Assembly (NCBI GenBank): GCA_945874225.1
Contig: CAMCFT010000001.1
Coordinates: forward strand, 186,001-250,000
Length of the DNA: 64,000 bases
Reading direction: 5' to 3'
DNA from: Flavobacterium psychrophilum
Lineage (GTDB): Bacteria > Bacteroidota > Bacteroidia > Flavobacteriales > Flavobacteriaceae
How positions within the stretch are numbered: position 1 is the first letter of the stretch; each line of letters starts with the position of its first letter. This document shows positions 38,884-62,310 of this stretch, piece by piece. The position numbers were made by a program, and so were the translations under genes. The notes beneath the pieces are model-generated. The model saw only the letters and a list, made by a program, of their open reading frames with translations. It was not told the DNA's origin and did no database searches.

Positions 38884-38946
38884 AAACTTATAAAAATTAT
38901 CTGATTTATCGCTAGGATTTGAAGGATAACTTCATCTAATTTTTTA

Positions 38947-38970
38947 GATTCTTCCTTCGTCAGAATGACA
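38947..38970. repeat. half of a dispersed repeat (gattcttccttcgtcagaatgaca family)
   Basis: The 24-base word from gattcttccttcg to aatgaca resembles, on the other strand, the arms of the palindrome at 61324-61393 (tgtcatttcgacgaaggag). Only one arm is present here, so this is a partial or decayed copy. Confidence 0.5.
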
Positions 38971-38980
38971 ACAAAAAAAA

Positions 38981-39177
38981 CCCTCAAGATTCCTTGAAGG
39001 TTTTAGAGGCATCGTCCGGATTCGAATCATAACTTTAATTAATTTTTTCCTAATTGCAACAAACATATTCTACTCCTTTTGTCACGCTGGAAGCGTCTCA
39101 ACATAATTAAGCAACCAATACAGACGCTTCCAGCGTGACAAATAGTAAGAATTATTTAATGCTAATTAAATTAAAAA
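38981..39177. repeat. partial tRNA-Cys copy 1 with terminator and palindrome pair
   Basis: On the minus strand this unit contains a palindrome pair (39121-39142 and 39078-39099), then a 3' tRNA fragment, then a terminator hairpin (ccttgaagg type). The 33 bases 38994-39026 are identical to 39485-39517, which covers the T-arm and 3' acceptor strand of tRNA-Cys plus its downstream flank. The 5' two thirds of the tRNA are absent, so it is not a functional tRNA gene. Confidence 0.85.
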
Positions 39178-39180
39178 AAA

Positions 39181-39377
39181 AAACCTCCAAGTTTCCTTGA
39201 AGGTTTAAGATTTTGTCCGGATTCGAACCATAACGTTACTTAATTTTTCCTAATTGCAACAAACATATTCTACTCCTTTTGTCACGCTGGAAGCGTCTCA
39301 ACATAATTAAGCAACCAATAGAGACGCTTCCAGCGTGACAAATAGCAAGAATTATTTAATGCTAATAAAAAACAAAA
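39181..39377. repeat. partial tRNA-Cys copy 2 with terminator and palindrome pair
   Basis: Same layout as copy 1 with a 200-base period: terminator (aaacctccaagtttccttga, 39181-39200), a decayed acceptor end, the T-arm sequence gtccggattcgaacc, and the palindrome pair at 39278-39299 and 39321-39342. The sequence from taattgcaacaaacatattc to the end of the palindrome pair is nearly identical to copy 1. Confidence 0.85.
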
Positions 39378-39378
39378 A

Positions 39379-39468
39379 AACCTCCAAGTTTCCTTGAAGG
39401 TTTTAGAAAAAGTCGTCCGGATTCGAACCATAACTTTACCTAATTTTTCCTAAAAATTAAACATAAAA
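39379..39468. repeat. partial tRNA-Cys copy 3 with terminator
   Basis: Terminator hairpin, decayed acceptor end and the T-arm gtcgtccggattcgaacc, then the flank taactttacctaatttttcc as in the other copies, but without the palindrome pair. It sits directly downstream of the real tRNA-Cys terminator. Confidence 0.8.
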
Positions 39469-39469
39469 A

Positions 39470-39494
39470 AACCTCCAAATTACTTTGAAGGTTT
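39470..39494 (-). terminator. terminator of tRNA-Cys
   Basis: Inverted words aacctccaa and ttgaaggtt around atta-ct, with a T run on the minus strand, directly after the tRNA. The same hairpin is repeated in each partial copy further downstream. Confidence 0.6.
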
Positions 39495-39497
39495 TAG

Positions 39498-39568
39498 AGG
39501 CATCGTCCGGATTCGAACCGGAGTAGGAGCTTTTGCAGAGCCCAGCCTAGCCGCTCGGCCACGACGCC
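39498..39568 (-). tRNA. tRNA-Cys (anticodon GCA)
   Basis: Minus-strand 71-base tRNA: acceptor GGCGTCG pairs with CGATGCC (one G-U), D-arm GGCCGAGCGGCTAGGC, anticodon loop CTGCAAA with anticodon GCA, T-arm CCGGTTCGAATCCGG. The discriminator base is U73, as required by cysteinyl-tRNA synthetase. The 3' CCA is not encoded. It is the only complete tRNA found in the window. Confidence 0.95.
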
Positions 39569-59295: not shown

Positions 59296-59493
59296 GAGAC
59301 GCTTCCGGCGAGACAAAATAGGTTGGTACTACATTGACGGGCACAAACACGCTCTATTTAGTTTGTCACGCTGGAAGCGTCTCACTGCACGAGAGCAAAT
59401 TAATTGAGACGCTTCCAGCGAGACAAAACAGGTTGGTACTACATTGACGGGCACAAACACGCTCTATTTAGTTTGTCACGCTGAAAGCGTCTC
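59296..59493. repeat. palindrome array, left arm (4 elements) next to the GIY-YIG gene
   Basis: Alternating 22-base elements: forward (gagacgcttccagcgagac type) at 59296-59317 and 59406-59427, reverse (tttgtcacgctggaagcgtc type) at 59362-59383 and 59472-59493. Each element is itself a small hairpin (acgct-tcc-agcgt). The forward-to-forward and reverse-to-reverse distance is 110 bases. The forward-to-reverse linker (44 bases, ggttggtactacattgacgg) and the reverse-to-forward linker (22 bases, actgcacgagagcaaattaa) are conserved. Confidence 0.93.
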
Positions 59494-59533
59494 TATTTGA
59501 GAAGGCATAATAATAGACTTTAAGAGAATCATT

Positions 59534-59842
59534 ATGATAGAATACATCGAAGGTATTTACAGTTTTTATGTTTACATCCTGACTAACAAAAATAAAAAAG
59601 TGTTATATACAGGTGTCACAAATGACCTAAAACGACGTTTGCAAGAACATAAAGAAAAAATAAATCCAAATAGTTTTACTGCACGTTATAATGTTGAATT
59701 TTTGCTTTATTATGAACATTTTACTTGGATACAGCTTGCTATTGCTCGTGAGAAAGAAATTAAAGATTTGAAACGAGATAAAAAAGAAATATTAATTAAT
59801 ACGATTAATCCAGATTGGAATTTTTTAAACGATTTGTTTTAA
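59534..59842 (+). CDS. GIY-YIG nuclease inside the palindrome array
   Basis: 102 residues, a single GIY-YIG domain of the small UPF0213-like type. Catalytic elements: YVY (12-14) and YTG (25-27) strands, Arg34 or Arg35 in LKRRLQEH, His39, and Glu73 in AIAREKEIKDLKRD. The C-terminus WNFLNDLF is typical. It has no extra DNA-binding domain. The gene is enclosed by the palindrome arrays at 59296-59493 and 59855-60208, which argues that it acts on those repeats. Its role is unproven. The ATG at 59534 is the natural start. Confidence 0.92.
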   Translation: MIEYIEGIYSFYVYILTNKNKKVLYTGVTNDLKRRLQEHKEKINPNSFTARYNVEFLLYYEHFTWIQLAIAREKEIKDLKRDKKEILINTINPDWNFLNDLF

Positions 59843-59854
59843 TTGTTCTATTTA

Positions 59855-60208
59855 GAGACGCTTCTAGCGAGACAAAACAGGTTGGTAATATATTGACGGG
59901 CAACAAACACGCTCTATTTAGTTTGTCACGCTTGAAGCGTCTCACTGCACGAGAGCAAATTAATCGAGACGCTTCCAGCGTGACAAAATAGGTTGGTAAA
60001 ATATTGATGGGCAACAAACACGCTCTACTCCGTTTGTCACGCTGGAAGCGTCTCACTGCACGAGAGCAAATTAATTGAGACGCTTCCAGCGTGATAAAAT
60101 AGGTTGGTAAAATATTGATGAGAACAAACGCGCTCTACTTAGTTTGTCACGCTTGAAGCGTCTCACTGCACGAGAGCAAATTAATTGAGACGCTTCCAGC
60201 GTGACAAA
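59855..60208. repeat. palindrome array, right arm (7 elements)
   Basis: Forward elements at 59855-59876, 59966-59987, 60077-60098 and 60187-60208; reverse elements at 59922-59943, 60033-60054 and 60143-60164. The period is 110-111 bases, as in the left arm, with the same linkers (ggttggta..., actgcacgagagcaaattaa). With the left arm the order is F R F R - gene - F R F R F R F. The region after it to trpS (60209-60260) contains nothing recognisable. Confidence 0.93.
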
Positions 60209-62244: not shown

Positions 62245-62310
62245 TTTGTCACGCTGGAAGCGTCTCAACACAATAGAGCATCATAACTGAGTCGCTTCCA
62301 GCGTGACAAA
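62245..62310. repeat. palindrome pair between plsC and recA
   Basis: Reverse element 62245-62266 (tttgtcacgctggaagcgtc type) and forward element 62289-62310 (gagtcgcttccagcgtgac type) 22 bases apart, the same family as the arrays at 59296-60208. Its left flank taaataattcttgctatttg is identical to the reverse complement of the right flank of the palindrome pair at 39278-39342, so a longer unit of about 110 bases is shared. Confidence 0.85.

Follow-up and report, generated by a model that had tools for sequence, protein, structure and literature searches.

The GIY-YIG nuclease gene of the window (the whole stretch of 64,000 nucleotides that was analysed) and the palindromes around it probably represent a unit that is bounded by REPs and encodes a hairpin-recognising nuclease of its own; the gene-less palindrome doublets would be its non-autonomous relatives. 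Gene and palindromes would then belong together as the two parts of a single system: in a unit of about 0.4 kb, a small GIY-YIG nuclease gene is placed between two hairpin repeats, whose TTTGTC ends point outward and which would serve as the enzyme's own recognition site. The association between gene and palindromes is firm. Recognition of the repeat by the enzyme is likely and self-driven mobility of the unit is plausible; cleavage and self-mobility are both steps that we infer.

The palindrome array and its nuclease gene

The repeats (REP) of the window, the nuclease gene and the doublets (REP, linker, REP) are the following.

59296..59317, minus strand: REP 1, 2 mismatches, reads TTTGTC...CTC with the tag first
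59362..59383, plus strand: REP 2, exact
59406..59427, minus strand: REP 3, 1 mismatch
59472..59493, plus strand: REP 4, upstream arm of the gene-bearing unit, 1 mismatch
59534..59842, plus strand: GIY-YIG nuclease ORF, 102 aa, intact
59855..59876, minus strand: REP 5, downstream arm of the gene-bearing unit, 2 mismatches
59922..59943, plus strand: REP 6, 1 mismatch
59966..59987, minus strand: REP 7, exact
60033..60054, plus strand: REP 8, exact
60077..60098, minus strand: REP 9, 1 mismatch
60143..60164, plus strand: REP 10, 1 mismatch
60187..60208, minus strand: REP 11, exact
59472..59876, plus strand: proposed gene-bearing unit (REP, leader, GIY-YIG gene, REP), 405 nt, suggested by the homology of relatives at unrelated loci, which remains inside the two arms
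59362..59427: gene-less doublet (REP, 22-nt linker, REP; 66 nt) inside the array
59922-59987, 60033-60098 and 60143-60208: three more gene-less doublets in the array
62245..62310: gene-less doublet in the interval between a plsC-like gene and recA
39078..39142: gene-less doublet 3' of a tRNA-Cys gene, amid fragments resembling the 3' end of that gene
39278..39342: gene-less doublet, copy 2 of a 200-nt duplication

The 22-mer GAGACGCTTCCAGCGTGACAAA was found at 17 sites of the window with up to 3 mismatches, 11 of them at 59296-60208 on strictly alternating strands, while 100 dinucleotide-preserving shuffles of the window gave no site at the same tolerance. In the array the layout REP, 44-45 nt, REP, 22 nt is repeated, and direct repeats are spaced by 110-111 nt except across the gene. 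The original prediction, which had described eleven alternating 22-base elements with a period of 110-111 bases, is thereby borne out, as is its claim that a single intact GIY-YIG gene replaces one 22-base linker between the fourth and fifth elements. The gene occupies a linker faced by the CTC ends, and the TTTGTC ends of REP 4 and REP 5 are directed outward. The three further nuclease-free places that had been predicted were also recovered (39078-39142, 39278-39342 and 62245-62310), in the same orientation as in the array and with linkers of 21-22 nt, but the first two are probably one event that was copied, because both are situated in a 200-nt duplication. In total, the window holds seven gene-less doublets versus one occupied doublet. 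The linkers of several doublets in relatives, compared by eye, seem alike in either orientation, which makes the 66-nt doublet appear to be a single dispersed element.

Folding as single-stranded DNA was predicted to be strong for two whole doublets (-24.2 kcal/mol and z -8.3 versus shuffles at 59362..59427; z -10.1 at 62245..62310) and modest for a single 22-mer (an exact copy has z -2.0 and a worn one z -0.7). In the predicted fold of the window repeat type, the TGTC tag is unpaired, the 5-bp stem starts with AC, the loop has 3 nt and the tail is CTC.

The 66-nt doublet was also located 3' of the plsC-like gene in three relatives (L003, L004 and L005). Its linker has the reversed orientation there in L004 and L005, while L007 and L009 carry palindromes of the GTCATTGCGAGG type 3' of the plsC-like gene, at the place taken by the doublet in the window and in L003-L005. 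The region 38911-39568 of the window contains repeated fragments resembling the 3' end of the tRNA-Cys gene (39497-39568, minus strand), accompanied by terminator-like hairpins and spaced by about 91-203 nt, and two of these units bear a REP doublet. A second tagged palindrome type, TTGTCATTCTGACGAAGGAAGAATCT, is present at 38946-38971 on the minus strand and is identical to the downstream arm of another GIY-YIG gene (L034).

The 102-aa protein matched PF01541 with an E value of 1.1e-17 and 64.5 bits, against a curated cut-off of 22.6. Alignment with its relatives revealed 17 columns invariant in all 23 sequences, including Y14, Y25, G27, R35, H39, E73, K77 and N92; the invariant Tyr, Tyr, Arg, Glu and Asn columns presumably correspond to the catalytic-type residues of GIY-YIG enzymes. 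An AlphaFold2 model was obtained with a mean pLDDT of 91.5, and the nearest solved structure was the UPF0213 protein BH0048 (1zg2), both by profile (E 1.9e-7) and by fold (E 2e-4, TM 0.54). The sole NCBIfam match, the group I intron endonuclease model TIGR01453, was far below its cut-off. Judged by its sequence, the GIY-YIG enzyme is intact.

Inverted repeats around related genes

A scan of one genome collection returned ten Flavobacterium/Flavobacteriaceae loci with 84-97% identity and one locus of Christiangramia crocea with 57% (L011). The window 22-mer or a related form was present near the gene in all ten close loci (at up to 5 mismatches), and in L006, L008 and L010 the forms ACGCT..AGCGT and ACTCT..AGAGT occur within one array. 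Near the C. crocea gene no window-type 22-mer was found, another palindrome family being present instead. Window-type sites numbered 4-39 in the genomes of ten of the 11 relatives and 0 in that of L011. Of 199 genomes of the genus, 150 contain a relative of the gene at E <= 1e-5; for a sample of 296 genomes from the whole phylum, the count was 151 at E <= 1e-6.

For a controlled comparison, 100 related genes were used, a non-random set made up of the best protein matches and a picked weaker set, with the flanks unseen at the choice; L012-L016, being duplicates or pattern loci, were left out. In 81 of these 100 genes, the 250 nt before and the 250 nt after the gene shared an ungapped inverted repeat with a score of at least 12, versus 3 of 42 long window ORFs; 19 related genes failed the test. 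Crossed pairs, in which the flanks were taken from different genes, passed in 78 of 300 cases, a figure inflated because related genes have repeat types in common. Large GIY-YIG genes from five genomes, some of them UvrC-sized, never passed (0/15), and small ones from these genomes did so in nine of 12 cases; five of these 12, all passing, were already among the 100, leaving 4/7 for the new ones, and two of the four new passes (L175 and L187) are weak or A+T-rich. The 12 small genes remained from 15 matches after L184 and L185 (no central hit) and one match without a locus of its own were removed, and L209 and L229 were left out of the GIY-YIG comparison. In a phylum-wide sample, 19 of 27 genes carried an inverted repeat, one repeat row included. 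A looser measure, an exact 15-mer repeated within 500 nt, was positive for 89 of the 100 related genes (11 failing it), 15 of the 42 window ORFs and one of the 15 large GIY-YIG genes.

Tagged hairpins were sought in a separate search, of which the inverted-repeat test is independent, defined as GTC preceded by C or T and continued by a perfect stem of at least 5, within 200 nt of the gene. Such hairpins were detected upstream of 89 of 134 genes; the corresponding counts were 2/42 for ORFs, 2/15 for large GIY-YIG genes and, over five shuffles, 1 to 5 of 134. Downstream they were detected for 88 of 134 genes, compared with 5/42 ORFs and 1/15 large GIY-YIG genes. The nearest hairpin had its tag outward in 61 and inward in 28 cases upstream, and in 61 and 27 cases downstream. 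Repeat types whose tag starts with a letter other than C or T escape this search, and the hairpin that it selected for the window is spurious. Among 122 outward arms, the stem starts with AT in 100, and the tag reads TGTC in 115 and CGTC in 7, although the latter counts are no test of the tag because the search required it. The arms of L103 and L104 run ..AATCCA. Arms were also collected solely by their outer letters. Those with 14 inner letters formed a class of 148 distinct sequences, in which pairing was found in 0.43 of cells at one register versus 0.22-0.29 at the five others tried. In its ten commoner sequences C-G, T-A and G-C interchange at stem positions, which amounts to compensatory changes in this one arm class; other arm lengths were less clear or in need of another register.

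Enclosure by inverted repeats thus recurs in most of the relatives examined, in Flavobacterium and in other Bacteroidota. A search for genes of this clade flanked by their own palindrome family had been proposed with the original prediction, and most genes examined are indeed flanked in this way.

Several distant GIY-YIG genes (L247, L251, L255, L241 and L253) have yet other palindromes nearby, e.g. TGTCAGGTCGAGCGCAGTCGAGA and CGTCAGTTCGAGTG. Genome G150 carries seven tandem 374-bp units that are 99% matches (C1:1850625-1853111; L256 and L259), each with a small GIY-YIG ORF of another clade and an apparent 3' part of a tRNA gene. This tandem array is localized near tRNA-Arg, -Pro and -Ser genes and is reminiscent of the tRNA-fragment array of the window.

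Repeat type and nuclease lineage

The repeat type follows the lineage of the nuclease more than the genome. Arm similarity tracked protein similarity among the 74 of 100 genes with clear arms (Mantel r 0.29, against a maximum of 0.22 in 2000 permutations); the other 26, with an arm score below 14, were left out. Of 21 genes that have a paralogue in their own genome, 18 carry an arm more similar to the one at the nearest protein from a different genome than to the arm of any paralogue.

The distribution of individual repeat types was compared over the 199 genomes. The repeat type TTGTCATTCCGTAGGAATCTC was present, at up to 1 mismatch, in 41 of them, and its reversed control had no match in any of the 199. 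A gene clade was defined by protein alone as the 19 genomes with the strongest matches. TTGTCATTCCGTAGGAATCTC occurred in 13 of these 19 genomes versus 28 of the 180 others (p 2e-6), and at 15 copies or more in 4/19 versus 3/180 (p 0.002), while the window type occurred in 4/19 versus 11/180 (p 0.04); these p values are one-sided, the species are related and the gene's own arms are counted. When genomes were divided by the presence of any gene relative (E <= 1e-5), the difference was clear for TTGTCATTCCGTAGGAATCTC (39/150 vs 2/49, p 3e-4) and not significant for the window type (13/150 vs 2/49, p 0.24). A count of 10/10 (p 5e-8) for genomes with a gene of one repeat type was not used, being circular because those ten genomes had been chosen by their arms.

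Individual genomes speak against a strict coupling of copy number and gene. Genome G190 has 83 TTGTCATTCCGTAGGAATCTC sites and G149 has 25, both without a gene of that type (best gene E 6e-27 and 4e-36, respectively), and G058 has 13 window-type sites with only a distant gene relative (best 1.5e-10). In three of the ten genomes with a gene of the TTGTCATTCCGTAGGAATCTC type (G164, G191 and G067), all such sites are at the gene itself. Genome G024 carries 15 TTGTCATTCCGTAGGAATCTC sites together with a broken gene relative that is flanked on both sides by such sites. The idea that palindrome copy number would follow the presence of the gene was therefore upheld in part: both repeat types are enriched in the protein-defined clade, but there are genomes with many copies and no close gene.

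Unit boundaries, movement and known systems

The gene is situated between dprA and trpS in the window and in seven relatives (L001-L005, L007 and L009), where it looks settled because the locus is the same in all. In L006, L008 and L010 it is found at another place, common to all three, and only the gene itself matches the window unit. Two loci of a ten-locus clade, L030 and L033, are placed apart from the rest, and their homology to the clade begins about 45 nt upstream of the start codon and ceases about 20 nt downstream of the stop codon, at the arm ends; the place of L033 is not wholly unrelated, as its downstream flank is homologous to that of L032. Among 43 non-syntenic pairs with at least 78% identity, which come from few clades and are not independent, homology continued more than 30 nt past the upstream arm in none and past the downstream arm in two, compared with 25 and 25 of 62 syntenic pairs. 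Ends within 8 nt of both arms were seen in 9/43 non-syntenic versus 13/62 syntenic pairs, which is no excess, and many ends fall inside the unit. For this comparison, 40 of the 100 genes had no near arm pair and were left out. Block behaviour of the unit is thus partly shown: the sequence common to copies at unrelated loci lies inside the arms and hardly ever continues beyond. The arms bound the homology, but the exact-end evidence comes from few clades.

No precise empty site was found at the L033 place, where the neighbours are kept around gaps of 45-644 nt in the 17 relatives compared, out of 19 loci; these gap sequences are too different for an insertion point to be read, being turned over and in some cases containing other palindromes. 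No gene relative was detected in any of the 19 loci. The dprA-trpS gaps likewise gave no precise empty site, their sequences being too diverged, and no clean empty allele was seen for the plsC-recA doublet. In one genome without a gene relative at E <= 1e-5 (G014, locus L152), the dprA-trpS gap is 142 nt long with seemingly worn repeats, and it is possibly the scar of a lost unit. The proposal that the gene mobilises the repeats has thus received indirect support from arm-bounded homology at unrelated loci, but neither a precise empty site nor an excess of exact arm ends was found.

In the mechanism we consider, the nuclease would recognise the hairpin in DNA made single-stranded by replication, transcription or DNA uptake and would nick it at the tag or at the foot of the hairpin. 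The nicked ends could then spread the unit, or the gene-less doublets, via repair synthesis or strand transfer, as proposed for RAYT/REPINs. The array of the window would represent the resident unit amplified in tandem with doublets. A stronger version, to which we assign less than an even chance, is that no classical transposase is involved and a stand-alone GIY-YIG nuclease itself moves the REP-bounded unit and the gene-less doublets by cutting its own hairpin ends, and is the missing dedicated enzyme of CGTC/TGTC-tagged repeats.

Another explanation, unlikely in our judgement though the strongest of the competitors, is a restriction-like nuclease serving its host: single-strand cuts at the repeats would shape DNA uptake or recombination, as the Ssn enzyme of Neisseria reportedly does, the flanking repeats would be regulatory or self-marking, and mobility would be incidental. 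The constant position at dprA-trpS in the window and seven relatives would fit such a role, as would the intact active-site columns and the low number of sites (4-8) in six of the ten close relatives (G001, G002, G003, G005, G007 and G009), the four sites listed for G002 all lying at the gene within about 550 nt of each other. However, homology at unrelated loci stays inside the arms, a genome may carry up to 12 related genes, and some copies have internal stops (L033 and L034).

It is less probable still, and in our opinion doubtful, that the nuclease is a homing-like parasite for which the doublet, spread by something else, is merely the target, and whose gene invades the 22-nt linker after empty doublets are cut. 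The gene does stand exactly at the linker position of a doublet in a window with seven gene-less doublets and one occupied, and GIY-YIG is also a fold of homing endonucleases, although the TIGR01453 match is far below cut-off. Homing predicts many occupied doublets with near-identical genes per genome, whereas most of those listed for G077, G150 and G191 are divergent; the exceptions there are a tandem array of another clade and one equal-score pair, and equal-score gene pairs are also found in G006, G320 and G351. The tracking of gene lineage by arm type speaks against homing as well.

Movement of the repeats by Y1/RAYT tyrosine transposases, with the GIY-YIG neighbour as a passenger, is very improbable. 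Y1 matches were present in 16 of 17 genomes tested, 15 of these over the family cut-off, which would favour this candidate. Yet neither of the two GIY-YIG-associated repeat types sought occurred within 400 nt of any of 30 Y1 loci, out of 64 matches listed, and this candidate was rejected. At 16 of 27 Y1 loci there are inverted repeats with a different sequence, which in some cases ends in GTAG or TATAG; this result serves as a positive control for the method. Genome G188 has 43 TTGTCATTCCGTAGGAATCTC sites with no Y1 match.

Coincidence, i.e. repeat-rich intergenic regions that happen to hold small genes, can draw on one convergent-looking intergenic gap that is palindrome-rich in relatives and on the 15 of 42 window ORFs with some repeated 15-mer within 500 nt, but it was rejected as having next to no probability in view of the controlled inverted-repeat test (81/100 versus 3/42 window ORFs and 0/15 large GIY-YIG genes), the tag test and the lineage tracking of arm type.

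The preferred reading, a REP-bounded unit with its own nuclease, can be set beside several known systems. In RAYT/REPIN systems enzyme and repeat type go together, and the likeness lies in an enzyme gene flanked by inverted palindromes and in dispersed gene-less doublets. Here, however, the enzyme is a GIY-YIG and not an HUH/Y1 protein, the tag is TGTC and not GTAG, and Y1 genes with other inverted repeats coexist in genomes bearing GIY-YIG units. The RAYT-like idea of the original prediction, with a GIY-YIG nuclease as the enzyme, is well supported as an association, clade genes being mostly flanked by their own palindromes, but only indirectly as mobilisation. MITEs and insertion sequences also have inverted ends and gene-bearing and gene-less forms, but the present unit has no known transposase, and no target duplication was noticed among gap sequences too diverged to show an empty site. 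By profile and fold, the protein resembles UPF0213 and other small GIY-YIG proteins (BH0048, 1zg2). Titles and abstract openings of open-licence papers gave no tie of GIY-YIG proteins to these repeats. A survey of the GIY-YIG superfamily from 2006 (PMC1564403) says nothing of palindromes of this kind where the words 'repeat' or 'mobile' occur.

The closest description of the palindromes is that of Di Nocera, De Gregorio and Rocco (2013; PMC3733652), who divided REPs into GTAG- and CGTC-tagged superfamilies. There, the CGTC tag is unpaired and reads TGTC in many repeats, stems are 8-9 bp long with AT almost invariably in the first two positions, loops have 4-5 nt, the tail is mostly CCA, and dimers occur. 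The CGTC/TGTC-tagged palindromes came from five phyla, with Bacteroidetes among the hosts and G. forsetii named, and were stated to 'apparently lack a dedicated transposase' (PMC3733652). The window repeat shares with them, as so described, the unpaired TGTC tag, the dimers and a Bacteroidetes host, and most other arm types found here start with AT (100/122); it differs in its 5-bp stem, AC start, 3-nt loop and CTC tail, and in the GIY-YIG gene attached to it, where no transposase was reported (PMC3733652). A GIY-YIG gene with a repeat type of its own would thus offer a concrete and testable answer to the missing-transposase question raised in PMC3733652. The GIY-YIG enzyme may, in other words, be the missing partner of a major bacterial repeat class. 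G. forsetii presumably belongs with Christiangramia, the genus of the most distant of the 11 relatives (L011).

The statement of the original prediction that the arrangement has no established name does not stand, given the likeness of the palindromes to the CGTC/TGTC-tagged superfamily and that of the enzyme to the reported Ssn family. We take the window enzyme to resemble this family of GIY-YIG nucleases, which, as Chenal et al. are said to have described in Nature Communications in 2025, cut single-stranded DNA at a repeat of Neisseria meningitidis and reportedly have many homologues with their own targets. The likeness would be that of a small GIY-YIG protein with a cognate genomic repeat. 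If that report is correct, the enzyme class and the pairing are already known, part of the present findings may already be in print, and what is added here would be the arm-bounded unit, the gene-less doublets, the coexistence with Y1 genes that have palindromes of their own, and the likeness to the CGTC superfamily. Many natural pairs of enzyme and hairpin would be on offer for the study and use of single-strand site recognition. If the preferred reading is true, two unrelated nuclease folds, that of the RAYTs and that of the GIY-YIG enzymes, would have converged on the same way of living with hairpin repeats.
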